From a virus, in the IMG/VR virus record IMGVR_UViG_3300012000_000035, positions 1-45,030 of that record: a stretch of 45,030 nt of DNA; one strand, 5' to 3'. The notes beneath the pieces are model-generated. The model worked only from the letters and a program-made list of their open reading frames with translations, searched no databases and was not told the DNA's origin. A program made the translations under genes and the position numbers. This document shows, one piece after another, positions 4,985-45,030 of this stretch; position 1 is the first letter of the stretch, and each line of letters starts with the position of its first letter.

Positions 4985-5041
4985 ATTATACAAGAAAAGG
5001 CACCTGATTTCAAGTGCCCTTATGCCAGTTCTTGAAGTGTC
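4985..5041 (-). promoter_or_regulatory. Composite intergenic module 4 (terminator hairpin plus sigma70 promoter)
   Basis: The box AAGAACTGGCATAAG is followed by GGCACTTGA/TCAGGTGCC, a 9-bp stem with TTTTC behind it. TTGAAA (5013-5008), a 17-bp spacer and TATAAT (4990-4985) overlap that hairpin. It follows GIY-YIG gene 1 and drives the gene starting at 4961. Confidence 0.87.
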
Positions 5042-5666
5042 ATTTTTTCATCCTTCCAGGAAACCAACCATTGCCAGGACATTCTACGACAAATTTTGTA
5101 TTACCACAACCATCGTTCCACCATTTTTTACCGTAAGCAGGAGATTCTTTACCTCTTTTACCATATTGTGGATGATTTTTTCCCGCACATTTACCTTTCT
5201 GTGCCTCACTCATTTTTCTTTTGGTTTCTTCAGATAAAGTTTTACCTTTATGTGCTTCACTCATTTTCTTTTTGGTTTCTTGTGAATGAGTTCTGCCTTT
5301 ACTTGCTTTCCCTATTTTCTTTCTGGTTTCTTCTGATGGGTTTTTCTTTGTTTCACTCATCTTTCTTCTTGTTTCTTCACTTCTAACAACACCAGAAGAA
5401 CCTTCACCTCCATTAGTTTTATTATGAAGAATACCAGTTCCTAAATCCTTTCTACCAAAGACAGCAATCATATAGACCTCGTGTCTAAATGCTTCTTCCT
5501 CGGTTAAGTTTTGTTTTAGAATAAGTATTCTTGATTTATTCTTTGGGGGTCTTATTTCACTTTTATTTTTATAATATGCCCGATTACCTCCCCCCTTACC
5601 AACATAGTAAGGTGTTTTATCTACCCGCAAATATGCGTAGGTATAAAATCTGTATGGATTTACCAT
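5040..5666 (-). CDS. GIY-YIG homing endonuclease 1 with NUMOD3 repeats
   Basis: A 208-aa protein. The GIY-YIG nuclease domain spans about residues 6-95: FYTYAYLR at 7-14, YYVGKG at 20-25, Arg29, HE at 62-63 and Asn85 in NKTNGGEG are the expected active-site elements. It is followed by at least four NUMOD3-type DNA-contact repeats (SEETRRKMSE, SQETKKKMSE, SEETKRKMSE) and a C-terminal KKWWNDG...CPGNGW motif shared with copies 3 and 4. The start at MVNPYRF matches copy 2. A late promoter inside an inverted-repeat leader lies upstream. It is free-standing, not in an intron. Confidence 0.92.
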   Translation of the reverse strand: MVNPYRFYTYAYLRVDKTPYYVGKGGGNRAYYKNKSEIRPPKNKSRILILKQNLTEEEAFRHEVYMIAVFGRKDLGTGILHNKTNGGEGSSGVVRSEETRRKMSETKKNPSEETRKKIGKASKGRTHSQETKKKMSEAHKGKTLSEETKRKMSEAQKGKCAGKNHPQYGKRGKESPAYGKKWWNDGCGNTKFVVECPGNGWFPGRMKK

Positions 5667-14602: not shown

Positions 14603-14651
14603 ATTATAAGGCATCAGAAGGCACCTGTGGGATGCTCCTGTGCCAGTTGCT
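14603..14651 (-). promoter_or_regulatory. Composite intergenic module 10 (truncated box)
   Basis: The minus strand reads CAACTGGCACAGGAGCATCCC, then hairpin bases and TATAAT at 14608-14603. The CACTTGA half of the box is missing because the end of GIY-YIG gene 2 (GATTTAG) runs straight into AACTGGCACA. That marks a likely insertion boundary of the endonuclease. Confidence 0.7.
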
Positions 14652-15531
14652 AAATCGGCACACTCCACCCCTTATGTTGGTGCAATTCTCCTTTTATTAC
14701 TTTTGATATTTCCGTTCTATTCAAATTGTATTTTTCACAAAATTTGCGAATTGTGGTTATTTCTTCCACAATCTCACCAGAAGGAGATAGAAGACGCAAA
14801 AATTTATTATGGGAAGAAGATATTTTTTGTTTTAGTTCTTCAGAGCAAGATTTTCCTTTCCTTGCTTTACTTATTTTATCTCTTGCTTCTTGTGAATGAG
14901 TTTTTCCATAAAAAGGATTATTCTCACCTTTTATTTTTTCACTTATTTTTCTTCTTGTTTCTAATGAATGTGATCTTCCGGTATTTGCTTCACTTATTTT
15001 ATCTCTTGTTTCTTGTGAATGAGTTTTTCCAAACATAGGATTTTTATCTCCTACATATTTTCCTTTCTTTGCTTTACTTATTTTATCTCTTGCTTCTTGT
15101 GAATGAGTTTTACCAAGAAATACACTAACCATTCCTTTTTTATTTTGACTCAATCTTATTATTGTTTCTGGTAAATGTTTTTTACCATAAAAGGGATTAT
15201 TTTCACCTTTTCTTTTTTTACTCATTTCATTTTTAGATTTTTTGCTATGTCTAAATCCACTTATCCCATCACCACCATTAGTTTTATTTCGCAATATCCC
15301 AGTTCCCAAATCTTTTCTACCAAACACAGCAATCATATAGATTTCGTGTTTGAATGCTTCTTCTTCGGTTAGGTTTTGTTTTAAAATAATGATTCTGGAT
15401 TTATCTTGTGGTGAATTGACTTCACCTTTATACTTTCTATATGCTCTATCTTTTTGCCCCTTTCCTATGTAATAAGGAGTTCTATCCTCACGCAAATAGG
15501 CATAGGTATAAAACCTGTTAGGATTTACCAT
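14650..15531 (-). CDS. GIY-YIG homing endonuclease 2 with NUMOD3 and NUMOD1
   Basis: A 293-aa protein. I start it at MVNPNRFYTYAYLRED (ATG 15531), as in copy 1; an in-frame TTG at 15555 adds eight residues inside the leader stem and is not credible. The nuclease domain has FYTYAYLR, YYIGKG, HE and NKTNGG. It is followed by about seven NUMOD3 units (SQEARDKISKA, SLETRRKISE, GENNPFYGKTH) and a C-terminal NUMOD1-like helix-turn-helix (LLSPSGEIVEE and IRKFCEKYNLNRTEISKV), which copies 1, 3 and 4 lack. Known relatives bind a long site through these modules and cut with the N-terminal domain. It abuts module 10. Confidence 0.92.
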   Translation of the reverse strand: MVNPNRFYTYAYLREDRTPYYIGKGQKDRAYRKYKGEVNSPQDKSRIIILKQNLTEEEAFKHEIYMIAVFGRKDLGTGILRNKTNGGDGISGFRHSKKSKNEMSKKRKGENNPFYGKKHLPETIIRLSQNKKGMVSVFLGKTHSQEARDKISKAKKGKYVGDKNPMFGKTHSQETRDKISEANTGRSHSLETRRKISEKIKGENNPFYGKTHSQEARDKISKARKGKSCSEELKQKISSSHNKFLRLLSPSGEIVEEITTIRKFCEKYNLNRTEISKVIKGELHQHKGWSVPI

Positions 15532-15542
15532 TTCTACTCTTA

Positions 15543-15630
15543 AATTGGTTCGCAATACTATTTATACAAGAAAAGAGGCATTTCTGCCTCTCCTCTACCT
15601 TAAAGATGCGAACCAATTAAGGCATTATTA
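15543..15630 (-). promoter_or_regulatory. Nested inverted-repeat leader of GIY-YIG 2
   Basis: The arms AATTGGTTCGCA (15618-15607) and TGCGAACCAATT (15554-15543) are perfect over 12 bp, different in sequence from leader 1. Between them lie GAGGCA-GAAA-TGCCTC with TTTTC (15590-15571) and the late promoter TATAAATA (15566-15559). The 3' arm ends 11 nt before the ATG, next to the probable ribosome site AAGAGTAGAA. Confidence 0.75.
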
Positions 15631-21130: not shown

Positions 21131-21874
21131 TTATAACATTTTTTTGTTCATTTGCCAAGTAATTATTCTTCCAATATTCCATCCTTCTCCAGGGCATTCC
21201 ATACAAAATTTAGTTTCTTTTCCATTATTCCACCATTTAACACCTTTTTTAGATTTACCTATATTTTCACAATGTTCTGGTGGGAGTGATTTTCCAGTCA
21301 TTTTTTGTTTTCTTTTTTCAATAACTTCGGCATTTTTTGATGGATTTTTTTCTCCTTTAAAATTTTCACTTCTTTTTTTTCGAGTTTCATCAGTTATTAT
21401 TCTTTTTTTAAGAGCATCACTAATTTTTTTTCGTGTTTCATTCGAACGAATTTTTCCAAGATTTTTACCTCTTAGTGCTACACTCATTTTTCTTCTTGTT
21501 TCTTCACTTATATTTTTTGATGCCTCACTAATTTTTCTTTTAGTTTCTTCTGAAAGAATTTTACCTTTATTTGCTTCGCTTATTTTTATTTTAGTTTTTT
21601 CACTTAAAATTTTTCCACTTGGACCATCTCCACCATTAGTTCTATTGTGAAGAATACCAGTGCCTAAATCTTTTCTACCAAACACAACAATCATATAGAT
21701 TTCGTGCTTGAATGCTTCTTCTTCTGTAAGATTTTGTTTGAGATAGATTATTCTACTTTTATCTTTTGGTGGATTGTGCCACTTATCTTTTTGATATAAT
21801 CTCTTACCTTTACCTTTACCTATGTAATAAGGTGTTCCATCTTCACGCAAGTAAGCGTAAGTGTAGTATTCCAT
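21131..21874 (-). CDS. GIY-YIG homing endonuclease 3 with NUMOD3 repeats
   Basis: A 247-aa protein starting MEYYTYAYLREDGTPYYIGK. The active-site elements are YTYAYLR, YYIGKGKGKR, KHE and NRTNGGDG. At least six NUMOD3-like units follow (SEETKRKISEAS, SEETRRKMSVAL, SNETRKKISDAL), several shortened, then a spacer with ENIGKSKKGVKWWNNG and CPGEGW as in copies 1 and 4. No NUMOD1 domain is present. The start is fixed by the leader stem. It is free-standing between small genes. Confidence 0.92.
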   Translation of the reverse strand: MEYYTYAYLREDGTPYYIGKGKGKRLYQKDKWHNPPKDKSRIIYLKQNLTEEEAFKHEIYMIVVFGRKDLGTGILHNRTNGGDGPSGKILSEKTKIKISEANKGKILSEETKRKISEASKNISEETRRKMSVALRGKNLGKIRSNETRKKISDALKKRIITDETRKKRSENFKGEKNPSKNAEVIEKRKQKMTGKSLPPEHCENIGKSKKGVKWWNNGKETKFCMECPGEGWNIGRIITWQMNKKML

Positions 21875-30400: not shown

Positions 30401-32870
30401 TACTTGATTCTTGAATTACATATCCATCAACTGGAGTTCTTGAATTTGCTACTTCTTTGGGAATAACTACTCTTAGTTTATAAATTTTCTCATCAATACT
30501 TCTTGAGTCACTAATTCTCTTAACATAAGAAATATTAGATCTTTCTCCTAAAGACGCAACTCCTTGGGAAACAAGGAAATTATAAATTTCATTATTTGCA
30601 TTTGTATGAATATACCAATTTTTGTTAGATGGATCATATTGAATTGGTGATCCAACATCTCCAGATATTTTATCAGATACTCTACTTACAACGCTAAGTT
30701 GATTTCCACCATACATTGAAACTGCAATACCAATCGAAGAATTGGTCAATGATGATGCAAGTTGAAGTTGTGTTGATGATGTTGGAATTGCATAATAAAT
30801 GGTATCGGCATCAATATTTTCTGGAAGATCTCCAGTATCACTATATAATCTAATTTTTTCTCCGGTTTGAATTCCAATTGCGGATGCAAACGTTAATGTA
30901 CTATTTGTTGGGCCAGATTGAACATAATATGTTTTCTGAGAACTTGTGGTTCCTAGTGCTGTAGTAAGTCCTGAAGATGATAATGCATTATCAACCATAT
31001 AGATTGATGCCGAATATGTTGTGCCAGATCCAACAACATAAAGTTTATCATTATTTCTTGCACCAATTCGATATCCTTGAATAATTGTTGGAGGAATATC
31101 ATCAGAATTTGTAAACCCATAAAGATATAGATGACTGGAAATTCCTACAGAAATAGTCAGTCCAACATCAATTGCATTCCAATCAATGTTGGTTTCCGTA
31201 GAAGTAATTGCTCTTGGGACTATAATAGATGTAATATATGCAGTATTATCTTTTCCAAAAGATTCTGCTTTGAATCCATCAGAACTTAATGAAATTTGTC
31301 CAAAGTTGGAGTTTGAGTTTGTAATACTTCCATCACCACCACTTTGTGCATCAAAATGCTTATTATATCCAATTGCAAATACTGATACAATTTGTACGAA
31401 GGCGTCATTTGAAATTTTAATATGAGAAGATTCCCATCCTTTTCTATAAATTGCTCCAGAATCTAAGTGATAAACTTTTGCAGTATCTGTAGAAGATGCT
31501 TGTCCAGGTAAATCTGCTCCAGTGACAGTACTAAAATTAATAGTATCATAATATCTTGAGGATTGAAGATATTTTGCAAATGCACGATCATCTTTTTGTA
31601 AAGATACTCCAGTGAACTGTGCAACAACCATTGAACGGAAACCTGATGCTTTGCTACCATCAGCGTGCATTCCATTCATACCCCACACAGAACGCAGAGA
31701 GATGTTGAAAATATAAGGTGATGCACCAGATACTGTGTCAGTCTCAATCGTTACAGTTGCTCCAGATGCACTTGGACTTGCATTTAAATTAATAGGAACA
31801 TAAGGAAGACTATATGTAAACTTGTAAGGACTGACAGGATCTGGAGCATCAACAACTGTGGAGATATTATAGTTAGATACACCAACTCCTTTAATTTTAA
31901 TTGGAGTTCCAGATGTTAATTTGTGAGGAACTGTAGTTGTAACTGTAATCGTTTGACCTGCAGTAAATCCATCATTCGAAATAATTGAAGAAATACTAAT
32001 AGGATCTGTAGCGAATGCTCCAACAATTTCCCATTCTGGTCTTTGTTTTGCAAATCCGAGACCATTATTTGTAGGATATTTTTCATCAATTGGTCTAACT
32101 GCATTATAAGCATTTGAAATCTTATTATAATACATGTCAAGATCAGTTTGATCATAATTAACTCCATTTGCTGCGGCAATATTTGTACCATCAGCATATT
32201 CAAAACATGTAAGTTTATGGTGACTGAATTTTGGAGTTGATTGATTTAATGATGAAAAATCACTCTTATCGGTGTATACTAATCCCGTTGTATCCCCATC
32301 AAAGAACGAAAGTTGCCAAAAATAACATGCTCCAGTAATTCTAAAAATGGCACTATTCGGCACATTTGGATCTGTTGGATTTGGAACATACTTAGGACGA
32401 AGTTTGGTTTTTCTTAAGTCAAGACCAACAATTGAAGTACCCCTTGGTACAATTACACCACCGTAAATACTATTGAACTTATAAAGAATATTATCGTTTT
32501 GTGTTAAATCGAAAACCGTTGTAAGATTTAAAGACAGTACATCACCAGCGTTATATGTAGTTCCTCCACTAGGTGAAATTGCTGTTGCCGTATTATTGAT
32601 ATTTTTAATTCCCCATCCAGGGCGATTATCAATCAAATGCTCCCCAGGACATAGTAAAATTGTAGTTTTTTCTACATAATCATTATCATTTCCTTTTAAA
32701 TATGAAAATCTTGCTGCTTCTAGTAAAGCTCTTTGAACAGTTTTAAAGGGTTGTGTTAAAGAGTTACCTTGATTTGTAATTGAATCCGTTGCATCAAGGT
32801 CACTAGGATTGACATAAAGAATACGACCTTCAGTATTCTTGATGAAATTATCTAATTTATTAAGGCTCAA
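27408..32870 (-). CDS. Large tail-fibre/structural protein with Peptidase_S74 (1820 aa), TTG start
   Basis: The frame opens with TTG at 32870 (product MSLNKLDNFIKNTEGRILYV), behind GAGGTAAAG, which matches the usual N-terminus of these cyanophage proteins; no ATG is nearby. The N-terminal ~120 residues (TQPFKTVQRALLEAARFSY, TTILLCPGEHLIDN) resemble a beta-helix entry domain. Repetitive beta regions follow (GGVGIGISLNVAG, GGVGIGSNLYVGG). Residues about 1730-1820 form the Peptidase_S74 intramolecular chaperone: SDQRLKENI with the Ser-Lys pair and GVIAQEILEILPEAV. That domain assists trimer folding and then cleaves itself off in known relatives. The start overlaps the end of GIY-YIG gene 4 by 11 nt. 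Confidence 0.88.
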   Translation of the reverse strand: MSLNKLDNFIKNTEGRILYVNPSDLDATDSITNQGNSLTQPFKTVQRALLEAARFSYLKGNDNDYVEKTTILLCPGEHLIDNRPGWGIKNINNTATAISPSGGTTYNAGDVLSLNLTTVFDLTQNDNILYKFNSIYGGVIVPRGTSIVGLDLRKTKLRPKYVPNPTDPNVPNSAIFRITGACYFWQLSFFDGDTTGLVYTDKSDFSSLNQSTPKFSHHKLTCFEYADGTNIAAANGVNYDQTDLDMYYNKISNAYNAVRPIDEKYPTNNGLGFAKQRPEWEIVGAFATDPISISSIISNDGFTAGQTITVTTTVPHKLTSGTPIKIKGVGVSNYNISTVVDAPDPVSPYKFTYSLPYVPINLNASPSASGATVTIETDTVSGASPYIFNISLRSVWGMNGMHADGSKASGFRSMVVAQFTGVSLQKDDRAFAKYLQSSRYYDTINFSTVTGADLPGQASSTDTAKVYHLDSGAIYRKGWESSHIKISNDAFVQIVSVFAIGYNKHFDAQSGGDGSITNSNSNFGQISLSSDGFKAESFGKDNTAYITSIIVPRAITSTETNIDWNAIDVGLTISVGISSHLYLYGFTNSDDIPPTIIQGYRIGARNNDKLYVVGSGTTYSASIYMVDNALSSSGLTTALGTTSSQKTYYVQSGPTNSTLTFASAIGIQTGEKIRLYSDTGDLPENIDADTIYYAIPTSSTQLQLASSLTNSSIGIAVSMYGGNQLSVVSRVSDKISGDVGSPIQYDPSNKNWYIHTNANNEIYNFLVSQGVASLGERSNISYVKRISDSRSIDEKIYKLRVVIPKEVANSRTPVDGYVIQESSTTGIRTDGDFTLTSIGSSDYFYNRNPRFISSCTVTSSTVTALSELPHNLQIGDKIIVTNVTDSNNTVGTANSSYNGTFTVTSITDDKTFTYSTTDVNGIIHSPGTFTNNINSRTSSLPRFQRNDLQSNYFIYRNEVIKPYIEGTQDGIYHLYVLNAKNQIPDQFTNLKYSQNVVDLYPQLDRDNIDDNPPSAVSFAKRSPLGDVVTNDLKKSITRETIDDVVQTFGVGLGIATVFNSTTSSVLTFDRPHGLAGIVTYSTLTGGSGKTNGTYYNVKLFNESGLINWDGATAKVTVSGNAVSSVDIISGGSGYTNGETLYFDTSVVGGTANASITIATSGISSALGNTIQITGIGTTSDGYYRISSIPAANQIAIAKTAGDPIIFVGQYALVVGPSIPITSSTYDSATGITTFTSLRSHGLLSGNQFKVIDSSNNNLGSFIVRAGVTTTTFSAITNSSISSAYVLKHGLSSNSAISDSSGENVGVRDISFYENETLILASALTNGSIIQVYNQIAGISTTKRFPLGSYIQIDNEIMRITTNTLSGSGNNEMGVIRGVFGTIKSNHSAGAVIKKIKPIPIEFRRPSILRASGQTFEYLGYGPGNYSTGLPQVQVKTLSEREAFLAQSQQRSCGLVVYTGMNNDGDFFIGNTKYSSSSGQQKSFNIPNPTITGQDPYRLSVVYDEITVKERILVEGGNSGTILSQFDGPVTFNKELKMNDPVTINDELKVTSTETITNTTNSTSPSSGALVVSGGVGIGISLNVAGISSFANSTNSISTSTGSVVVRGGVGIGSNLYVGGTFNVAGVATFQNNVYLGDSDTIYFGDGNDLRIYHNGTNSYIDDQGTGSLVIKSDNLSFRNSADDEQIALFTQDSAVLLYYNNSKKFETIGTGVSITGELITTGDITAFYTSDQRLKENIAPIPNALDKVISISGNTFDWVQGSGKEGSDVGVIAQEILEILPEAVTTRETGYLAVRYEKIIPLLIEAIKNLKAEIDELKRG

Positions 32871-33435
32871 AATCTTTACCTCTTTCTACTTTCTTATATG
32901 CTTTATTTATTAATCTTCCCAAACTAAAATCTTCACCGGGACAATCTTTGGAAAACTTACATTCTACCCCATTATTCCACCACTTTTTACCCCAAGAAGG
33001 ACTTTCTTCTTTTGTATATTTTCCAATCTTTGCAGCACTTACACTTGCTTTCCATTTATCACTTACTACTCTTCTTTTTGCTGCTTCACTTAATGATTTT
33101 CGGTGTGCCTCACTTTTCTTTCTTCCTTTATGTCTATCACTCAATTTCTTTTTTGTTTCTTCACTTAAAACACGACCAGCACAACCTTCTCCACCATTGG
33201 TCATATTTCTTAAAATACCTGTTCCCAAGTCCTTTCTACCTAAAACCGCAATCATATAAATCTCGTGCTTCCTTGCTTCTTCATCCGTAAGATTTTTCTT
33301 CAGGAATATTATCCTTTCTTTTTCTGTTGGAAGATGAATAGTATGTAGAGAACTATTAATCCTTCCAGATTTTCCTTTACCAATATAATAAGGTGTGCCG
33401 TCTTCACGCAAATAAGCGTAAGTGTAGTATTCCAT
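32860..33435 (-). CDS. GIY-YIG homing endonuclease 4 with NUMOD3 repeats
   Basis: A 191-aa protein, MEYYTYAYLREDGTPYYIGK at the start as in copy 3. The nuclease elements are YTYAYLR, YYIGKGKSGR, RKHE and NMTNGGEG. It has about three NUMOD3-like units (SEETKKLSDRHK-like, SEAHRKSLSEAAK, SDKWKASVSAAK) and the C-terminal KKWWNNG/CPGEDF motif. Its last codons and stop contain the ribosome site and TTG start of the 1820-aa tail protein, so both genes are locked together. It carries a late promoter in its leader. Confidence 0.92.
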   Translation of the reverse strand: MEYYTYAYLREDGTPYYIGKGKSGRINSSLHTIHLPTEKERIIFLKKNLTDEEARKHEIYMIAVLGRKDLGTGILRNMTNGGEGCAGRVLSEETKKKLSDRHKGRKKSEAHRKSLSEAAKRRVVSDKWKASVSAAKIGKYTKEESPSWGKKWWNNGVECKFSKDCPGEDFSLGRLINKAYKKVERGKDFEP

Positions 33436-35577: not shown

Positions 35578-36356
35578 AATACTTCTCTCACCTTTTCTTT
35601 AATATTTCTAATTCTTTGATTCCACCAAGAAGTAACAGATTGACTATCTATTGTGGGTTTGGTACACTCTATGTATGCATCTTCCCAGGAATCGGCAAAA
35701 ATCCAAGGTGGATTTTCTTCGTATTTAAATGTAATTTTTATTTCATCTCTTGAACCTACTACAACAGGAATTGCTCCATTCATAGATGCCTCATATAATC
35801 GAAAGCAATCTAATGAAGAATTACCTCTTCCACAAGGAACAAATAAAGACTTTGAATAAATTTTACACATCAATTCTTTTGTGGTAGAGTTCCCAATAAA
35901 ATGAGGATTCAATTTTTGAAAGGTTGATATCATATCACTTCGGTCAGATTTGATTTCTCCTAGAAAAGACCAGATCAGTTTTTTATTCTCAGAAAAAATT
36001 TTACAACCATTTGTATATCCTAAAGGAATGTGAATAGTATTTGATGTGTATGTATAATTTGGATGATGATATTGTCTTAAAAATAATTCACAATAATTTC
36101 CCAGTTCATTGAAACAAGATAAATCTTCACCAATGAATTCATCAGACAAACAAATAATAATTTTTGGTTTAATTCTTTTTATTGTATTTTTGATATTCGA
36201 AAAACTATGAACCCTGGAAGAAAATGCAAATACATCACAATTTAAATTAATAGTTTCAATTTCTGATGTTGGAATATAATTTACATTTCCTTCTGGTAAA
36301 ATTTCATTTAATAAAAAATCAGTTTCCCATAATCCAGTTTCAACCACATAATTCAT
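35574..36356 (-). CDS. GT47/exostosin-like glycosyltransferase (260 aa)
   Basis: Residues 171-200 (LFVPCGRGNSSLDCFRLYEA and GAIPVVV) match the nucleotide-sugar-binding region of exostosin-family (GT47) glycosyltransferases, where CPRGxxxDTxRxxEAxxxGxIPVVV is typical. The N-terminal half holds ICLSDEFIGEDL and LRQYHHPNY and is likely the acceptor-side domain. GT47 enzymes transfer sugars from UDP-sugars. Donor and acceptor are unknown. It overlaps both neighbours (ATGA). Confidence 0.75.
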   Translation of the reverse strand: MNYVVETGLWETDFLLNEILPEGNVNYIPTSEIETINLNCDVFAFSSRVHSFSNIKNTIKRIKPKIIICLSDEFIGEDLSCFNELGNYCELFLRQYHHPNYTYTSNTIHIPLGYTNGCKIFSENKKLIWSFLGEIKSDRSDMISTFQKLNPHFIGNSTTKELMCKIYSKSLFVPCGRGNSSLDCFRLYEASMNGAIPVVVGSRDEIKITFKYEENPPWIFADSWEDAYIECTKPTIDSQSVTSWWNQRIRNIKEKVREVL

Positions 36357-38500
36357 AAAGGATTGGATAAATCAAAATTATTTTGAATCAACTCGATAAT
36401 ATTTTTATTTTTGGAGACTACACCAAGTCCAAAAGTATGAGTAAAGGTGCATTTGGGGAGATCTATCTCATCAAAAAATTTCTTGACTCCATACTTATTT
36501 CCATTGAGTTCTTCCACGCAAGTATCGTGAAATAAAATAACTCCATCATCATTCACAAATTTACTCCAAGTTTCAAAATCATTTTTCACTGATTCATAAG
36601 AGTGATCTCCATCAATATGTAAAATATCAATCTTTTTATCCCAAGTTTTTGCCACATCATCAAAATATCCTTTAATGAAAGTTATATTATCTTTCAAGTG
36701 TAACTTTTCTTGTTTATGAAGAACTAAATTGTAAACAGAATCATCTCTATGACCAGCATATGGATCACCCTCAAATGAATCAATTCCATATACGTGACCT
36801 ATACGAGGCATAGCAAAACAGAAAGTAGAAAATCCCCAATCAACTCCAAGATCAACAGTAACTTTTGGTTTCAAATAAGAAACTAACCACTCAGCAAAAC
36901 CACGATGCCCTTTCCAACAAGTATGAAGATCTTCTAGATTTGTTAAAAAAAGTTTGTCTATTGCTTGATGTCTTTCTGGAAATCTTAAAGTTTCTGGATT
37001 AAATCCAGTTGCAAATATAGTAATATTTGGATTATTTAAATTTTTAGAAAGTTCGCCAAGATATGAAAATGCCTGAGAAAGATAAGGTTCTCCCATATTC
37101 ATTGCTTCACTTACTGCGTGAAAAGCATAATTTGCTCCCTTAGAAATATTTTGAAGTTGAATTAAGCAAATACTACAACGAATGAAAGCAATAATTCTAA
37201 ATGTATCAAAATATGCCTTGGAGACATTCAAATATTCTTGACCAAATTCAAGTGCCTTTTGATGATTTCCAACATTAAAATAATGATTGAAAATAAACCA
37301 AATATAATACCAGTTTGTTGGATCTTTTTGGTATTCTCTCTCGCAGATATCAAAATAAAAAAGTTCTTTTGAGATTGATTTGTGAATTTTTTTTGTAATT
37401 TTAATCGTAGTATCTACAGAAGATTCTTGAGGAAATTCTTCCGTAGAAACAAAGATAGGCATTTCGTGAACTGCATTTACCCATTTATAATTTTTTGTTC
37501 TATGAAATCTTGTGTGAACTTCATTGGATTGTTGTGGTTCATCTTGACCGTTATCATCAAATCTCAAATGCCTGAATGTCGTAAAGTCTTCCTGAACCAT
37601 ATCCAAACCTTCAAGATAAATCTCATTTACATCTTCATTGAAATCAATTGAAAATGCCCAATCAGTTTTTACATAAGAAAGTGCCTGATTTCTTGCAACA
37701 GAAAAATCAAATTCTTTTTTTGTTTGTGGGTGTTCGTGAACTTCAATACCAGCATCTCTGAGAAGTTGAACTGTGTTATCAGTGCTTCCAGTATCAACGA
37801 CTACAGTATGATAAAACTTTTTGGAATTTTCAATAAACTTATCAATATTATTTTCTTCGTTTTTTGCAATCGCATATAAAGTTACATTCATTTTAATCTC
37901 CTCATTTTTTGGTTTGAAGTGGCACCAATGCCAAATTTTTTGTGAATACTCATAGTTTAAATTACCATTCAGAAAAAATAATGTTTTGTTATTGAAATAC
38001 TCATTGACTGCAGAAATCACACCATTCCAACATAGAGCATAGTCATCTCCAGCAATCAATCCTCCAGGTTTAAGTTTTGGATACCAAGCAGTGATATCTG
38101 CCAAAACATTTTCATAATCGTGAGATGCATCGATGAAAATAAAATCAATACTCTCATCGTCAAATTGAGATGCCACACTCAAACTTGTTCCTTGAATGGG
38201 AACAATAATATCATCAACTTTACATAAAGATATATTATTTTGAAAAAGTTTTAGTAATGAAGTGAAATTATTTTTTATGTTTTTTATGATTTCAGTATGT
38301 TCTTCACTACCTTCAAATGTATCTATCGCATAAACTTTTATATTCTTTTTTGATTTCTTAATTTCCTGCCCCAAACAACAAGTGGATCTTCCCATCCAAG
38401 AACCAATTTCAACAAAAACTGAATCGTCTGAAAATTTACTTGCTGCTAATTTATAAACTAAATCTGAATCAAAAAATCCAGGAACATCTTTCCAATTCAT
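36353..38500 (-). CDS. Methyltransferase - GT2 - TPR - methyltransferase fusion (715 aa)
   Basis: Three enzyme parts are visible. Residues about 1-195 are a class I SAM methyltransferase (FVEIGSWMGRST motif I, FIFIDASHDYENV, LKPGGLIAGDDY). Residues about 205-400 are a family-2 glycosyltransferase (VTLYAIAKNEENNIDKF, VVVDTGSTDNTVQLL). Helical TPR-like repeats follow to about 510. Residues about 540-700 are a second methyltransferase (TVDLGVDWGFSTF, DILHIDGDHSYESV, DGVILFHDT). The start is ATG 38500, preceded by GGAAG and overlapping the upstream stop; a TTG five codons earlier is less likely. The enzyme probably adds and methylates a glycan; substrate unknown. Confidence 0.85.
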   Translation of the reverse strand: MNWKDVPGFFDSDLVYKLAASKFSDDSVFVEIGSWMGRSTCCLGQEIKKSKKNIKVYAIDTFEGSEEHTEIIKNIKNNFTSLLKLFQNNISLCKVDDIIVPIQGTSLSVASQFDDESIDFIFIDASHDYENVLADITAWYPKLKPGGLIAGDDYALCWNGVISAVNEYFNNKTLFFLNGNLNYEYSQKIWHWCHFKPKNEEIKMNVTLYAIAKNEENNIDKFIENSKKFYHTVVVDTGSTDNTVQLLRDAGIEVHEHPQTKKEFDFSVARNQALSYVKTDWAFSIDFNEDVNEIYLEGLDMVQEDFTTFRHLRFDDNGQDEPQQSNEVHTRFHRTKNYKWVNAVHEMPIFVSTEEFPQESSVDTTIKITKKIHKSISKELFYFDICEREYQKDPTNWYYIWFIFNHYFNVGNHQKALEFGQEYLNVSKAYFDTFRIIAFIRCSICLIQLQNISKGANYAFHAVSEAMNMGEPYLSQAFSYLGELSKNLNNPNITIFATGFNPETLRFPERHQAIDKLFLTNLEDLHTCWKGHRGFAEWLVSYLKPKVTVDLGVDWGFSTFCFAMPRIGHVYGIDSFEGDPYAGHRDDSVYNLVLHKQEKLHLKDNITFIKGYFDDVAKTWDKKIDILHIDGDHSYESVKNDFETWSKFVNDDGVILFHDTCVEELNGNKYGVKKFFDEIDLPKCTFTHTFGLGVVSKNKNIIELIQNNFDLSNPL

Positions 38501-39195
38501 AAGTAATTCTTCCAATCAATACAAGGTGAAATCCATTCTTTTACTGCGTGAGTTGAATATCCAGGAAGACAAGAAATCAAATATTTTCCTCTTTGATTCA
38601 AGTCCAAAAATTTTTGATGGTCTGCAGTTGGTTCTACATTGAAAGAATATTGATAATGAATTTTTTTATCTTCTTTTAATGTTTTAAATTTAGTAGCAAA
38701 AGTATTTGTAGTAGAAGGAACTGGTTTCCAATGAGAATTTTCAGTAATTAAAATCTTACTCATTAGATCAGAATACATTTCTGTGTATTTGTCTCTATGA
38801 TCATATAAAGTGACATATGAAACTGGTAGATCAAATCCTTCTTGAAGAATAACATCCCAGTTTGGTCGATGAACATAATCATCTTCCAAAAAATAAATGA
38901 TAGTATCATCATCAAAGTCTTTTTGTAAGACGTATTCTAACGTTCTCAAAAAACTTTTTGCTTCTCCTCCAGCATTGATAATATGAACATTCTCTTCCTG
39001 CGATAAAAATGTATCTTCTATTTTACCATAAAACTCATCATAAAATATAGTATAATTAGTGGTCTCTGAATTATGAGTATTTTTAAAATTTTGAAATACT
39101 TTTTGTTTATTCCACCATTCTGGTCTTTCTTTATTTGGTTGCTCTTGAATCTTTGAATAGTAACAATGTCTTAGAAATACCTCAATTTTTTTCAT
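38497..39195 (-). CDS. Putative GT-A-type glycosyltransferase (232 aa)
   Basis: MKKIEVFLRHCYYSKIQEQP at the start, then TIIYFLEDDYVHRPNW near residue 100: an acidic EDD motif after a hydrophobic strand, as in the metal-binding DXD of GT-A enzymes. The C-terminus (YSTHAVKEWISPCIDW) is aromatic. No closer family is recognised, so the call is moderate. Overlaps of 4 nt link it to both neighbours in the glycan operon. Confidence 0.65.
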   Translation of the reverse strand: MKKIEVFLRHCYYSKIQEQPNKERPEWWNKQKVFQNFKNTHNSETTNYTIFYDEFYGKIEDTFLSQEENVHIINAGGEAKSFLRTLEYVLQKDFDDDTIIYFLEDDYVHRPNWDVILQEGFDLPVSYVTLYDHRDKYTEMYSDLMSKILITENSHWKPVPSTTNTFATKFKTLKEDKKIHYQYSFNVEPTADHQKFLDLNQRGKYLISCLPGYSTHAVKEWISPCIDWKNYL

Positions 39196-39971
39196 ATGTT
39201 AAATTTATCATAAAGTTTTACATTTTCTTCACCAATAATTTCTTCTGGAGGTGGTGAAGTTCTCTGGAGTTTTGGTCTTATTTTATGAAGATTTTCAATA
39301 CCCCAAGCATCATCTTTGTCTTCTGCACAAGTATTTAGAATGTTGGAAAAATCGTGCTGATGAGGTTCTATCTCAAGAAACTCATAGATTTTTTTTATGG
39401 TTTCTTCTGGATTTTGTGTAATATCTTTATAATCTACTAAGTGAATATTTTCTGGATTATGTTCTAATCCATATACTAGACTTTGATATGGATCTGACAC
39501 ATAATTTTTCCAAAGACATTCAATACGATTATCTACAGTAATTTCTTTTCCTTCATTTCTTAAATGTGCATCTACAAAGTTATCAGTTTTATTTTTTTCA
39601 ATAAGAATAATATACGATGCAAGAACTTCTGATATTCTACGATTAGTTGCTACAATTTTTGGTTTTTGATGAAGAAATTTTTCAATTGAAGATACATTTT
39701 TACACCATCCACGATGTTTGTCTAAAATACAAGGTTTATCAATATGGTTGTAAAAGTTTGAAAGAATTGAATGATAAGTATTATAAACAATCTGTTCCTT
39801 ATCGTAAGTGTATTGTAGATCTAATTTTGAAAATCCATCATCAATCCAACATAATAGATCGGCAAGAGGTGATGTTGGAGTTGCCTGAATTTTTGGATGC
39901 TGAGAAAGAATGGAACCTAATAATGTGGAACCACTTCTGGGAAGACCAGAAAGAAAATAAAGAGACTTCAT
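39192..39971 (-). CDS. Sulfotransferase (259 aa)
   Basis: The P-loop LSGLPRSGSTLLGS at residues 7-20 is the 5'-phosphosulfate-binding motif of PAPS-dependent sulfotransferases. Residues near 115-130 (KPKIVATNRRISEVLASYI) fit the 3'-phosphate-binding motif with Arg and Ser. The C-terminal half holds HLVDYKDITQNPEETIKKIY, typical of the family. The enzyme would transfer sulfate from PAPS to a carbohydrate or tyrosine; neighbours favour a glycan. It depends on host PAPS. Confidence 0.85.
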   Translation of the reverse strand: MKSLYFLSGLPRSGSTLLGSILSQHPKIQATPTSPLADLLCWIDDGFSKLDLQYTYDKEQIVYNTYHSILSNFYNHIDKPCILDKHRGWCKNVSSIEKFLHQKPKIVATNRRISEVLASYIILIEKNKTDNFVDAHLRNEGKEITVDNRIECLWKNYVSDPYQSLVYGLEHNPENIHLVDYKDITQNPEETIKKIYEFLEIEPHQHDFSNILNTCAEDKDDAWGIENLHKIRPKLQRTSPPPEEIIGEENVKLYDKFNI

Positions 39972-39987
39972 AGATTTTTGAAATTAT

Positions 39988-41016
39988 TTATGGATCTGGT
40001 GTGTATTGAATTGCTGCTATATGCTGACGCCCACAAAAAGTAAATTTCCATTTATTTGCACCATATAATGTGGTGACTGGTGTGCTTCTAGTTGTAGTAT
40101 CATTGACTCCGAGTTGTCCATAAGAATTACGACCCCAAGTCCATAAAGTTCCATCAGTTGTGAGTGCAACCGTATAATAACCTCCACCAGAAGTAGATTT
40201 CCAGTTAGTTCCACCCAATAGTGTTGTGACTGGTGTGCTTCTAGATGTAATATCATTGACTCCTAGTTGTCCATAAGCATTAAAACCCCAATTCCATAAG
40301 GTTCCATCGGTCTTGGTTGCAATTGTATATAATTGTCCACAAGAAATGGATTTCCAATTGGTTCCGCCTAATAATGTAGTGACTGGAGTAAGAGTTGTAT
40401 TTGTAGTATTGATTCCTAATTGTCCCCTATCATTACGACCCCAAGTCCATAGAGTTCCATCGGTTTTAATTGAGATTGTGTGTAAAGTACCACCATCAGC
40501 AATGGATTTCCAGTTGGTTCCACCTAAGAGTGTGGTGACTGGTGTACTTCTATTTGTAGTATCATTGACTCCTAGTTGTCCATTAGTATTAGAACCCCAA
40601 GTCCAAAGAGTTCCATCGGTTTTAATTGAGATTGTATGAACATAACCACCAGCAACAGATTTCCAGTTAGTTCCACCTAATAATGTAGTGACTGGTGTGC
40701 TTCTAGATGTAGTATCATTGACTCCTAGTTGTCCATTACTATTAAACCCCCAAGACCATAGAGTTCCATCAGTTTTTATTGCAACTGTATAATATTGTCC
40801 ACAAGAAATGGATTTCCAATTGGTTCCGCCTAATAATGTAGTGACTGGTGTTATTCTAGTTGTGATTTGGTCATTGACTCCTAATTGCCCTTCAAAACAA
40901 CGTCCCCAATTCCACAAAGAAGGTTGCCTAAAAATTTCAGCAGGCACAAAGATATCATAAAAATCATAGACAACTCCATTTTCAGTAAATCTATAATTAA
41001 TATCGTCTCTAGGCAT
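39988..41016 (-). CDS. RCC1-repeat beta-propeller protein (342 aa)
   Basis: After an N-terminal motif (YRFTENGVVYDFYDIFVPAE) the protein contains six units of 51 residues: LWTWGxNxxGQLGVND, then TPVTTLLGGTNWKS and CGxxHTxAIKTDGT. These are RCC1 repeats, which close into a beta-propeller. The DNA copies (153 nt each) are nearly identical over long stretches. Similar proteins are frequent in cyanophages near tail genes; a role as surface or fibre component is plausible. A second RCC1 gene sits at the right edge. Confidence 0.88.
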   Translation of the reverse strand: MPRDDINYRFTENGVVYDFYDIFVPAEIFRQPSLWNWGRCFEGQLGVNDQITTRITPVTTLLGGTNWKSISCGQYYTVAIKTDGTLWSWGFNSNGQLGVNDTTSRSTPVTTLLGGTNWKSVAGGYVHTISIKTDGTLWTWGSNTNGQLGVNDTTNRSTPVTTLLGGTNWKSIADGGTLHTISIKTDGTLWTWGRNDRGQLGINTTNTTLTPVTTLLGGTNWKSISCGQLYTIATKTDGTLWNWGFNAYGQLGVNDITSRSTPVTTLLGGTNWKSTSGGGYYTVALTTDGTLWTWGRNSYGQLGVNDTTTRSTPVTTLYGANKWKFTFCGRQHIAAIQYTPDP

Positions 41017-41022
41017 CTTATT

Positions 41023-41379
41023 TTATTGCTGTTTTACTATCACTATTGGAGTATTCATCTTTTGACTCCAGTTATCAAAATACTCTATTATACTCTTATT
41101 TATCGAATCCTTAGTTGTCTCGATGATTTTAAGATATTGTCCTTGTGCATTATTCTCAACTGAAACCAAAAACCCACACTTATCTGGTCTAAATTCATCA
41201 TCAATTAATTCCTGTACCCAAGCACAAAAATAATTTTCACAAGATTTGGGTCTTACTTTATGAACACTGCATCCATCGCAATCTAAAAATTTACAAGATT
41301 TTCCAGCACCAAATTCCCATCCATAAGAATCTCCATATAACCAAGTGCAGCAGACAGTGCAACCATTACAATTTCTCAT
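41023..41379 (-). CDS. CxxCxxCC (YkgJ-like) zinc/iron-binding protein (118 aa)
   Basis: The N-terminus MRNCNGCTVCCTWLYGDS carries CxxCxxCC, followed by CKFLDCDGCSVHKVRPKSCENYFC. This is the pattern of the YkgJ/UPF0153 family, whose clustered cysteines are thought to hold zinc or an iron-sulphur centre. The C-terminal half is beta-rich and less conserved. It ends the operon from 44854 and is coupled by ATGA to the gene before it. The biochemical role is unknown. Confidence 0.8.
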   Translation of the reverse strand: MRNCNGCTVCCTWLYGDSYGWEFGAGKSCKFLDCDGCSVHKVRPKSCENYFCAWVQELIDDEFRPDKCGFLVSVENNAQGQYLKIIETTKDSINKSIIEYFDNWSQKMNTPIVIVKQQ

Positions 41380-42062
41380 TTGATGTAATCCGTTTCCTTA
41401 AAATAATAATTTACCAAATCTATTTCAGCATTATGTAATTTCGAGGAAAATTCTTCATTCCAAGTTTCCAAAGACTTTGCCTTATATTTCTTTCCACTAC
41501 CAATCCAAAACTCTCTATCTAATCTGTAATTTGTTTCCAAATACTTATCATTTAATCTATTAATATAAGAAGCATTTGCCCACCAAAAATTTCCTGGATA
41601 GTGCCCAACATTGTCTATGTTTTTTGTAACTTCACCGTTTCCCCAAATAGTATCACCAAGAATTAACCAAGTTTGCCCAACACAATCATAAGTATTTAAA
41701 TAATTTGCACATTCTTTCCATCGATCAATTACAAAGTATTCCATCATCAGTCTCCAAGATTGAGATTCTAGAGTATTCTTAGAAGATCCTTTTGTGTGAA
41801 AATAAAGAATTTTATAATCAGGATTTTGCTTGCAGAAATCTCGCAATGAAATCAAAGTTTCTGTTTCCTCTTTCCAATTTGTATTTCTCTTTACCACTGT
41901 TTTTTCTGGAACATTAAAAAGTTCTTGATCTCCATTCACACCAAAATGAATATAATCTGCTGCTTGTATCAATCCAGAAGAATACAAACGATGAATTTGT
42001 GATTGGTAAATAAAAGCACCCAATCCAATTTGCCCTATATGATAAAAAATTGCTATCTTCAT
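41376..42062 (-). CDS. Putative glycosyltransferase (228 aa)
   Basis: Begins MKIAIFYHIGQIGLGAFIYQ. Motifs include KILYFHTKGSSKN, YDCVGQTWLI and HYPGNFWWANASYI, which occur in glycosyltransferase-like proteins of phage and bacterial polysaccharide loci. No clear DXD is visible, so the activity call is moderate. It overlaps both neighbours and belongs with the other sugar genes here. Confidence 0.6.
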   Translation of the reverse strand: MKIAIFYHIGQIGLGAFIYQSQIHRLYSSGLIQAADYIHFGVNGDQELFNVPEKTVVKRNTNWKEETETLISLRDFCKQNPDYKILYFHTKGSSKNTLESQSWRLMMEYFVIDRWKECANYLNTYDCVGQTWLILGDTIWGNGEVTKNIDNVGHYPGNFWWANASYINRLNDKYLETNYRLDREFWIGSGKKYKAKSLETWNEEFSSKLHNAEIDLVNYYFKETDYIK

Positions 42063-42844
42063 ATTTGATATGTTGCTTCTTCCATTCCTTTAATTACATT
42101 TAATCCTAAATTTGAAGTTCGCACAATCTTTTTCTTATCAAGATAATAATATAAAGAGTGTTCGATATCAATACCAGTAGTGCATTGAATCATTTTTTCC
42201 ATATACTTAAAACTCTTTTCTAATGCATCTACAGTCTCAACAAATAAAGACCTATCAAAAGACCACAATCCAGTTACCATAGAACCTTTTGATTTGTAAA
42301 CAAAGGCATAAAAATTTTTATAGACAATATCATCCATTATGTCGTTTTCAATTTCTGGATATTCAAATGTTTTAGCAACATAATAATTTTCTAATAATTT
42401 ACTTTCGTAATCTTTGATGTCAAAATAATCATTCAAAGAATATCTTCCAGTTAATTTGAATACTCGTTGAACATCAGTAAATACTTGATTTTTTTTAATA
42501 TATTCTAATGCACATAAGACACCTCTAGTTTCTAATAGAGATTTTCCAAATGTGAATAATGATGGATTTGAATTTAAATTCTCATACAAAACTTTCAATC
42601 CAGAATCATCATAAAATTCTAGAAACAAATCTACTTTTTCTTTTAAAATATCTTTATAATCGTTTGGAATTTTTTTGTACGAACTTTCAAAAAGACAAAT
42701 ATAAGAATTTGGTGCCTTTTTTCGAATTGATTGAATTGTATCTAGTGTTTGAAAAAATCTTTGTTCTGTATTATATCTGCTATAATGTTCTTCCGCAAAA
42801 TGTTCAAGAGACGAACCGACTAAAAATAAAAATTTATAATTCAT
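42059..42844 (-). CDS. Putative glycosyltransferase-like protein (261 aa)
   Basis: The N-terminus YKFLFLVGSSLEHFAEEHYS precedes QRVFKLTGRYSLNDYF near residue 130 and TGLWSFDRSLFVETV, GIDIEHSLYYYL further on. The KLTGRY and later acidic motifs recall GT-A-like proteins seen in phage glycan clusters. The catalytic residues are not certain. Operon position supports a sugar-related role. Confidence 0.55.
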   Translation of the reverse strand: MNYKFLFLVGSSLEHFAEEHYSRYNTEQRFFQTLDTIQSIRKKAPNSYICLFESSYKKIPNDYKDILKEKVDLFLEFYDDSGLKVLYENLNSNPSLFTFGKSLLETRGVLCALEYIKKNQVFTDVQRVFKLTGRYSLNDYFDIKDYESKLLENYYVAKTFEYPEIENDIMDDIVYKNFYAFVYKSKGSMVTGLWSFDRSLFVETVDALEKSFKYMEKMIQCTTGIDIEHSLYYYLDKKKIVRTSNLGLNVIKGMEEATYQI

Positions 42845-43517
42845 AAAAACACGAAGAATGATTTGGAATAATTTTCTGTTGATTCAATACATTATTTATT
42901 CTCTTCGTCCAAAGGTCTGGAAGATTACTCTTAAATTCACTGATTCTAAAATAGTGCCAGGTTGCTGGATATAATGTTCCTGTGCCATAATTTCCATAAG
43001 ATCCAAGCATTCGATGGTTATCTCCATCATAACCAATTGGATACATTAATTGATATGGAAATCCAATTTCGTCTGCTCTTAATGATAAAATTTGAGCAGT
43101 ATCTATTTGAATTCCATCTTGAACAAACCAAGAGAGGTCTGGATTTCCCAAAGTATTCCAGGCGTCTTGAGTTACAATCAAAAAAGATGCAGCAGCATAA
43201 AGACGATTTCTCATTTGTGTATGAGAAATATTTTGAGCATTTCCCACGAAAGATTTATTTTTTACTGCCCAGTCATATGCTGTTTCTATTAATTTTTTAT
43301 TGTGAGGAATACAATCAATATCCAAAAAGCAAGCAACTTTTTCTTGTTGCATCACAGAAGTCATAAACTTTCCGTGAGCAGTATATAAAGTATTATAGTC
43401 ATCAATTGCATCTTCAATGTGATATTGAACTTCTAGTTCTAGTTTATCGCAAATTTTTTGATGATCTGATATTAACTGTTCTGGTAAATTTTTAGTATAA
43501 AAAGTATGAAATTTCAT
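42834..43517 (-). CDS. Putative GT-A-type glycosyltransferase (227 aa)
   Basis: Residues around 60-75 read KVACFLDIDCIPHNK, a hydrophobic strand ending in D-I-D as in the metal-binding DXD motif. Later segments (SFLIVTQDAWNTLGNPDLSW and DTAQILSLRADEIG) suggest a Rossmann-like enzyme. The fold assignment rests mainly on the DXD context. It overlaps the preceding gene by ATGA and the next by 11 nt. Confidence 0.6.
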   Translation of the reverse strand: MKFHTFYTKNLPEQLISDHQKICDKLELEVQYHIEDAIDDYNTLYTAHGKFMTSVMQQEKVACFLDIDCIPHNKKLIETAYDWAVKNKSFVGNAQNISHTQMRNRLYAAASFLIVTQDAWNTLGNPDLSWFVQDGIQIDTAQILSLRADEIGFPYQLMYPIGYDGDNHRMLGSYGNYGTGTLYPATWHYFRISEFKSNLPDLWTKRINNVLNQQKIIPNHSSCFYEL

Positions 43518-44854
43518 AGTGTATTTAAAAACTCCTTCAATTGTTGCAAGGGTTCATTCCAATTTCTTGGTTTCTTTTGTCGAAATAGATGAACATTATC
43601 TCCATACCACCAAGATTTTCCGGTTGAACTTGTCCAAGCATAATACTCCATAATTGGAACAAAAACACAAACTTTTTTACCCATTGCAGCAGCAATATGA
43701 GCAATTGAAGTACAAGAGGTAACAACTAAATCCATTTGATTGATGATGGAAAAGGTATCCGCAAACTCCCTGTCTTTTGAATGAAACTCTTGAATATGAT
43801 TTTTACAAGAATCAGGAACTGGAGTGTCACTCATTTGCAATGAATATAGTGAATATTCTGGTTTTGCTACTACATTCCACAAGTCAAAGAAATCTACACT
43901 TCTAAAATGTGCTTGTTCAAATCCAGAATCAGAATTCCAGAAAATTCCAACTTTAAATTTATCATTTTTTTGAAGATAAGAATATTGAGTTTCTTTTTGT
44001 GGAAGTGGTTTTAAATAAGGTTCTTGTCCCAAATCTTGAACTGAAAGTTGAAGATAATAAGGAAGAGCAAGAGCATATGTCCAACAAGCATCTTCTGGGT
44101 ATTCTGGATTATCCCAAACACAAACTGACTCAAATCCATTATAATTAAAAATTTCTGCAAGATGCTTTCTAGTTGTTGCCCATATTGGTCTCATTCCAAG
44201 ATTCTTTAAGTGCTTCATAAATCTGATGTGCATTATTTCATCACCAGCACCACAATTTCCATCAATCACAATAGTTTGATTTGGTTTTATGATACCATCC
44301 CATTTTGGAATTGAAAATTTAATACTTTTGTATGCTTCTTTTTCCGTTTCAATCAGAAAGTGTGAAAGTGCTGTATTTAAGTCATCTTTGCGAAAATAGT
44401 ATCCAGAAAGATTATGATGAACTTTCTTTTGTATTTCCTCTGGTAAATCTTTTCTTTTTGATAGATTGAATAGTAACTTATGTGCCTTATCTAATTGTCC
44501 TAATTGAGAATAAGAAGTTGTCTCCTCAAATAAAAGTTCTGGATCATTTGGAGTCAGTTTCTTACACTTCTCAATTTGAGTGATTGCTTTCTCTGGAAAA
44601 TTGAATTGATTATATGCATTAATCAGATTTTTGGAAGTAATATATTTTTCTTCTGTTTTCTCTGCAAGTTTTAATGCCTTTTCTCCATATTCAATTGCCT
44701 TTGTAAAATTTTTAAGTTCAAAAAATATCTTTGCTATTTCATCGTATTGTGAAAATATTTCTGCTCTTTTTCCAAATGCTTCTAAGAGTTGATATGTAAG
44801 TTGTTTTTCTTCGAATGAATATAATGTTTTTGCTACCAGTTCAAGTGGGTTCAT
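43514..44854 (-). CDS. TPR protein with GT-B glycosyltransferase domain (446 aa)
   Basis: The N-terminal ~190 residues hold at least four TPR units (AIEYGEKALKLAEK, AITQIEKCKKLTPNDPEL, AHKLLFNLSKR, ALSHFLIE). The C-terminal ~240 residues contain KVGIFWNSDSGFEQ, IINQMDLVVTSCTSIAHIAAAMGK and WWYGDNVHLFRQ, which match GT-B proteins of the GT9/TPR-glycosyltransferase type. Such fusions usually glycosylate proteins or lipid-linked sugars. It is the first gene of the operon 44854-41023. Confidence 0.75.
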   Translation of the reverse strand: MNPLELVAKTLYSFEEKQLTYQLLEAFGKRAEIFSQYDEIAKIFFELKNFTKAIEYGEKALKLAEKTEEKYITSKNLINAYNQFNFPEKAITQIEKCKKLTPNDPELLFEETTSYSQLGQLDKAHKLLFNLSKRKDLPEEIQKKVHHNLSGYYFRKDDLNTALSHFLIETEKEAYKSIKFSIPKWDGIIKPNQTIVIDGNCGAGDEIMHIRFMKHLKNLGMRPIWATTRKHLAEIFNYNGFESVCVWDNPEYPEDACWTYALALPYYLQLSVQDLGQEPYLKPLPQKETQYSYLQKNDKFKVGIFWNSDSGFEQAHFRSVDFFDLWNVVAKPEYSLYSLQMSDTPVPDSCKNHIQEFHSKDREFADTFSIINQMDLVVTSCTSIAHIAAAMGKKVCVFVPIMEYYAWTSSTGKSWWYGDNVHLFRQKKPRNWNEPLQQLKEFLNTL

Positions 44855-44878
44855 ATAAAATAATTTATTTGATATTAT

Positions 44879-45030
44879 TTAGATGTAATCTACTGATTGG
44901 ATTGCAATTGTATGAGACCTCCCACCGGCAATGGATTTCCAATTGGTTCCACCTAATAATGTAGTGACTGGTGTGCTTCTAGATGTAGTATCATTGACTC
45001 CTAGTTGTCCATTAGTATTAAAACCCCCAG
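44879..45030 (-). CDS. Second RCC1-repeat protein (5' end beyond window)
   Basis: About 50 residues before the stop at 44879 are visible: FNTNGQLGVNDTTSRSTP, TTLLGGTNWKSIAGGRSH and the end TIAIQSVDYI. They are RCC1 repeat sequence, and 69 nt (44946-45014) are identical to repeat DNA in the first RCC1 gene. At the first visible unit Trp is replaced by Gly (ACT GGG GGT), a single base change from ACT TGG GGT. It lies 24 nt before the TPR-glycosyltransferase start. Confidence 0.8.
   Translation of the reverse strand, partial: GGFNTNGQLGVNDTTSRSTPVTTLLGGTNWKSIAGGRSHTIAIQSVDYI

Follow-up and report, generated by a model that had tools for sequence, protein, structure and literature searches.

Concerted evolution of blades among three RCC1-type propeller genes in a freshwater cyanophage locus

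The 45,030-nt stretch of DNA analyzed here (the window) represents part of the genome of a freshwater cyanomyovirus related to Synechococcus phage S-SRM01. It covers part of a conserved locus with three RCC1-type propeller genes, R1, R2 and R3, whose repeat units (blades) evolve in concert under ends that keep their position. We consider it probable that the three gene products are propellers of the virion that bind receptors and are diversified through exchange of blades. The cassette of genes lying between R2 and R3 is normally retained.

A locus with three RCC1-type genes

The closest annotated relative of the window is S-SRM01 (Kyanoviridae), with 77% DNA identity over the aligned parts, which make up 36% of the studied region. 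Its genes gp335-gp345 (NC_070963) match the window locus in order and comprise fiber, RCC1 (R1), small gene, RCC1 (R2), TPR, 2OG-Fe(II) oxygenase, three unknown genes, Cys-rich gene, RCC1 (R3) and sulfotransferase. S-SRM01 differs from the window in the additional 2OG-Fe(II) oxygenase in the slot between R2 and R3, and in the blade number of its R3, which has seven; its R1 has six. The same gene order was found repeatedly in IMG/VR contigs. Relatives carry the third RCC1 gene, R1, besides R2 and R3, and their locus is preceded by a fiber gene with an S74 chaperone domain. Our favored explanation is that the window contains the R2-slot-R3 portion of a locus of tail genes, which runs from fiber, R1 and a small gene through R2, a slot of glycan-type genes and R3 to a sulfotransferase. 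Read from its sulfotransferase end, the covered part takes in R3, the slot and the final R2 codons, where the contig stops.

All locus genes in the window lie on the minus strand. R3 (39988-41016) encodes 342 aa with six WxWG blades, the cap ...YRFTENGVVYDFYDIFVPAEIF and the tail AIQYTPDP. Of R2, only the 3' end is present (44878-45030, the last ~50 codons), the contig ending inside the gene; its tail, AIQSVDYI, is the R2 marker in relatives and identifies the partial gene as R2. R3 is followed by the sulfotransferase (39192-39971), which flanks the locus, by the conserved gene g38 (38497-39195) and by a methyltransferase-glycosyltransferase-methyltransferase fusion (36353-38515).

The first-pass annotation had placed five genes between the RCC1 copies, and all five are found there. 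First after R2 comes a TPR protein, a putative TPR-glycosyltransferase (43514-44854). It is followed by two genes of unassigned function, g42b (42834-43517), which has a DxD motif (LDIDC) and occurs in part of the lineages, and g42a (42059-42844), which is kept in the slot of relatives. The last two are g41 (g41376; 41376-42062) and C118 (41023-41379), a small Cys-rich, CxxCxxCC-like protein. The labels hold in part: that of TPR is backed by Pfam, whereas the glycosyltransferase-like labels given to g41, g42a and g42b find no Pfam or PHROG function. g41 has no family match and is modeled as a GT-A/nucleotidyltransferase-like Rossmann fold with a TM of about 0.5 or less; a search of solved structures with it returned nothing useful. 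As to the Cys protein, its S-SRM01 orthologue matches CxxCxxCC (PF03692) at E=0.019, which falls short of the cut-off.

Elsewhere in the window, low-complexity TV/TETVT repeats occupy the left contig end (1-500). Both ends of the window thus lie in repeats, which is consistent with assembly breaks. Between small genes at 1519-23976, a short intergenic repeat (...CTTGTGCCAGTTCTTCAAGTG) recurs about 16 times, often after TATTATA and a GGCATC/GATGCC hairpin, and looks like a repeated regulatory or terminator element. Four related ORFs (5040-5666, 14650-15555, 21131-21874 and 32860-33435) have long DNA repeats in common and, judged by eye, appear to contain homing-endonuclease-like repeats, putatively GIY-YIG-like. 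A 669-aa protein (2332-4341) with GNDxLxGGxGND-like calcium-binding repeats, recognized by eye only, is unusual beside phage genes.

R1, R2 and R3 differ in their non-repeat N-terminal caps and in their tails. Dereplication at 97% TPR identity left 28 genotypes with TPR, R2 and R3. Among these, the nearest neighbor of a cap stood at the same position in 73/73 cases, a count that taken alone is partly circular because the position labels were assigned by cap similarity; cap identity was 66% within position versus 29% between positions. Gene order yields the same labels as the caps, with R2 preceding TPR and R3 preceding the sulfotransferase.

The genes carry from 5 to ~39 WxWG motifs, mostly seven; R3 of the window and R1 of S-SRM01 have six, and R1 of contig L084 has five. 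The window R3 is one blade short of its closest orthologues (390-394 aa, seven blades) and likewise of the seven blades of RCC1 proper. The missing blade could be real or could reflect repeat collapse in the assembly; at its expected site, residues 46-62, the structural model of R3 has a pLDDT below 50. Giant RCC1 genes were seen at position R2 in two contigs (L085:2273-9949, 2,559 aa; L077:3095-9967, 2,291 aa), with about 38-39 WxWG motifs, and are apparently several propellers in tandem behind a normal R2 cap. Whole-gene tandem duplications also occur, of R3 in L122:7628-9980 and of R1 in L207:7562-9980, every copy having the position-specific cap. Every PF00415 match in the two largest contigs that we searched (247 and 258 kb) falls within this one locus, so a second RCC1 locus elsewhere was rejected and there is no store of silent copies in these contigs.

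Shared tracts and blade identity

The shared bases that drew attention to the locus proved to be as described: 69 bp are identical at 40670-40738 in R3 and 44946-45014 in R2, exactly and in the same orientation, with no extension possible either way. The tract sits in the RCC1-type repeat unit, a 153-bp blade, of which the window holds seven in-register copies, six in R3 and one at the contig end. The same blades share further exact repeats of 55 bp inside R3 (40332/40794), 37 bp joining 40555 to 44984, and 31 bp. Only 16 bases of the window remain beyond the 69-bp match; their coding strand reads CTGGGGGTTTT and breaks an otherwise invariant W, probably because of a single-base error where the contig ends.

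Such identity might also arise, with no recent exchange, if the blade protein and its codon choice are strongly conserved. Even across genomes, blade DNA is about 76% identical, and synonymous identity between genomes is 0.65, versus 0.48 expected from codon usage. We simulated this situation in 2000 runs, in which the amino acids stayed fixed and new codons were drawn from the matching blade column in the closest relatives. The longest match was 27 bp on average, with a maximum of 62, and 69 bp was reached in 0/2000 runs. Protein conservation alone is thus insufficient for the 69-bp identity, and chance or codon bias as its source was rejected on the redraws. The 90-105 bp tracts found between paralogues and the higher synonymous identity of blades within genomes (0.729, versus 0.646 between genomes) also speak against conservation as the sole cause, which we regard as very improbable.

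We then compared 420 blade cores of 105 nt from the 28 genotypes. Blades of the same genome were 81.4% identical across different RCC1 genes and 80.6% identical within one gene. Between genomes, identity was 76.4% at the same position and 76.4% at another position, leaving no position signal, and order-based labels alone gave the same outcome (80.8, 81.2 and 75.8%). The longest exact tract had a median of 41.5 bp, and reached up to 105 bp, between paralogues of one genome, versus a median of 32 bp and a maximum of 51 bp between orthologues in the closest relative (p=3e-6). Tracts of 69 bp were reached by 6/52 paralogue pairs and 0/51 orthologue pairs, which puts the window tract in the upper part of the distribution. 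R2 and R3 as a privileged repeat pair were rejected because R1/R2 and R1/R3 tracts are equally long.

Paralogue repeats are therefore more alike within than between genomes and the unique parts are orthologous, the pattern of concerted evolution. These alignments indicate that blades are homogenized among R1, R2 and R3 under fixed caps, and that the 69-bp tract is a footprint of this homogenization. Counting against it, in 8/27 genomes the blades of the nearest relative were at least as close as own-genome ones. Assembly collapse could account for some of the within-genome similarity and of the variation in blade number, with about 20 contig ends lying inside RCC1 genes, and part of the signal could come from repeated re-amplification of one blade, as for other propellers (PMC9218822).

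A further concern is that the short-read assembler copied blades from one of R2 and R3 into the other, or merged them, and so produced a chimeric contig end. The stop of the contig 16 bp past the tract and the apparent one-base error there would fit this, as does the frequent termination of contigs of this family in RCC1 genes. However, TPR adjoins the R2 end, as expected from the gene order, and the tail is the one expected of R2; the 258-kb contigs concur on gene order, and the genome of the isolate S-SRM01 is arranged likewise, with inter-gene tracts of 32-42 bp. We consider an artefact unlikely and retain homogenization of the blades as our reading.

Gene content of the slot between R2 and R3

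The first-pass annotation had proposed that the direct repeats allow homologous recombination between R2 and R3, by which the cassette would be deleted or exchanged and the two propellers fused, possibly as a modular switch that changes surface chemistry and fiber together. The RCC1 genes do recombine, and R2/R3 tracts are long enough for such an event, up to 84 bp in canonical-size genes and up to 123 bp when incomplete genes are included. In contrast, the deletion or exchange of the cassette as a modular switch finds little support, contig L163 (below) being the exception. The two propeller genes are separate, with slot genes between them, in 28/28 genotypes that have TPR, R2 and R3, which speaks against fusion as a switch. 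Other gene sets do occur between the RCC1 genes, in line with the proposal, and the R2-R3 interval differs only between lineages.

The slot holds 0-7 genes depending on the lineage, usually 4-7, with R2 and R3 separate in all. It is empty in L218 and L219, holds a single x166 gene in L011, L016, L022, L027 and L220, consists of C118 only in L183, and contains TPR and C118 in L131/L209. Contigs L076/L097/L105 have a single 21-blade RCC1 gene with another cap and no R3, the cassette still being present, and L099 likewise lacks R3. Marine-type relatives without the cassette retain all three RCC1 genes, which is not what an RCC1 x RCC1 deletion would leave; together with the L076 type, in which one giant RCC1 gene accompanies the cassette, they argue against the switch. 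The slot genes also fail to co-vary as a block. Correlations of identity matrices averaged ~0.35 among slot genes versus ~0.46 between slot and flank (our averages), and the g41 matrix correlated with that of no other gene. Exchange of the slot as a block was rejected because slot genes co-vary no less with flanking genes than among themselves; the comparison points to gene-by-gene mosaicism rather than to block exchange bounded by the RCC1 genes.

A fused RCC1 gene lacking the cassette, the product predicted by the switch, was found as an R2/R3 junction in one contig, L163 (IMGVR_UViG_3300017722_002705, 9,400 bp), where it may be an assembly shortcut. This contig carries fiber, R1, small gene and an RCC1 gene with an R2 cap, with the sulfotransferase directly next. 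The candidate fusion (L163:3501-4274) encodes 258 aa, with four blades only and no cassette. Its tail scores 11.3 bits against the R3 profile, versus -16.1 for R2 and -16.7 for R1, and the spacer ahead of the sulfotransferase resembles R3 spacers. Against a genuine junction, L162, which comes from another sample and is 99.4% identical, carries an additional blade at the point where L163 skips across an exact repeat of 62 bp. Scans with the sulfotransferase and TPR sought a contig from the L163 population that has the cassette: the sulfotransferase closest in sequence was 94% identical and came with a full cassette, and the TPR scan returned no TPR contig from the two L162/L163 samples. We judge misassembly of L163 appreciably likelier than a true deletion. 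The routine modular switch appears improbable, and we keep to blade exchange with a normally retained cassette.

Fold, variable face and proposed function

R3 matches PF00415 (RCC1 repeat) at 195.8 bits (cut-off 21.7) with six repeats, and the phrog_4219 profile at E=4.6e-57. Its AlphaFold2 model has a pLDDT of 79.7, and the best PDB matches are the RCC1 domains of UVR8, HERC2 and RPGR (TM up to 0.80), so the predicted fold is that of an RCC1-type propeller. Each blade in the model has four strands, in the order STPVTT, WKSxxx, HTxAIK and LWxWG. We scored within-genome variation in 213 blades of 19 genomes. It is concentrated in two loops, at blade columns 17, 19-21 and 23 and at columns 36, 38, 39, 41 and 46-51, with near-invariance of the strands and of the other two loops, LLGGTN/FAGGTN and TDGT. 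Judged from meander topology rather than from coordinates, both variable loops would point to the same face, an arrangement that fits ligand binding better than DNA packing.

R1, R2 and R3 encode RCC1/BLIP-II-type beta-propellers, most likely virion adhesins placed differently by their distinct N-terminal caps. The nearly fixed scaffold DNA common to the blades would most likely allow blade-sized tracts to be moved within and between the three genes, either by the phage's own RecA/UvsX-type recombinase or through copying errors at repeats (copy-choice). This would homogenize the scaffold, alter blade number and reassort the variable loops of one face, and selection would presumably favor the resulting diversity. 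Caps, tails and the R2-R3 cassette normally stay, presumably because loss products are eliminated or because exchange is mostly non-crossover. A RecA-family gene is present in S-SRM01 and in two large relatives (247-258 kb). No reverse transcriptase (RVT_1) was found in the window, in S-SRM01 or in five large related contigs (two of 247-258 kb), and the locus as a target of a diversity-generating retroelement was rejected on this ground. More speculatively, the three propellers could form a reverse-transcriptase-free, self-diversifying receptor-binding set in which the recombinase shuffles blades of the hypervariable face and rare R2 x R3 crossovers, such as the candidate in L163, also delete the glycan cassette; we regard this extended version as doubtful.

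Adjacent RCC1-like genes are also found in the W70_237-239, GAP32_001, 121Q and phAPEC6 arrays of jumbo and Vequintavirinae-type coliphages, which share phrog_4219 with the window but differ from its locus in host and surrounding genes. We know of no report of blade exchange between the RCC1 copies of those coliphages. Three adjacent phrog_4219 RCC1 proteins were identified by mass spectrometry in W70 virions (PMC11370258), and the RCC1-like GAP32_001 was detected in the virion by the same method (PMC5259590); by analogy with both, we infer a virion location for the RCC1 proteins of the window. DNA packing has been suggested for phage RCC1 proteins (PMC7247149; PMC11370258), the phAPEC6 paper proposing a DNA-ordering role for its own (PMC7247149). 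The literature yielded nothing relevant on cyanophage RCC1 or propeller adhesins and no proteomics of these cyanophages, and the S-SRM01 paper is silent on chromosome-condensation proteins.

Highly repetitive beta-propellers of the RCC1/BLIP-II group are known to have near-identical blades, varying blade number and ongoing amplification (Pereira and Lupas 2022, PMC9218822). There, repetition lies within single proteins, whereas in the window locus three anchored genes, with other genes lying between them, have blades in common. Propeller blade amplification is thus known, and exchange among three anchored phage genes was not found described. In practical terms, short-read assemblies of this locus are untrustworthy for blade number or fusions. 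If our reading is true, phage RCC1 proteins, read as DNA-condensing in published virion studies, would gain a concrete role. If the blades form a shared recombining pool, they would provide a simple, homology-driven renewal of the binding surface, with an outcome comparable to that of diversity-generating retroelements and requiring only repeats and a recombinase.
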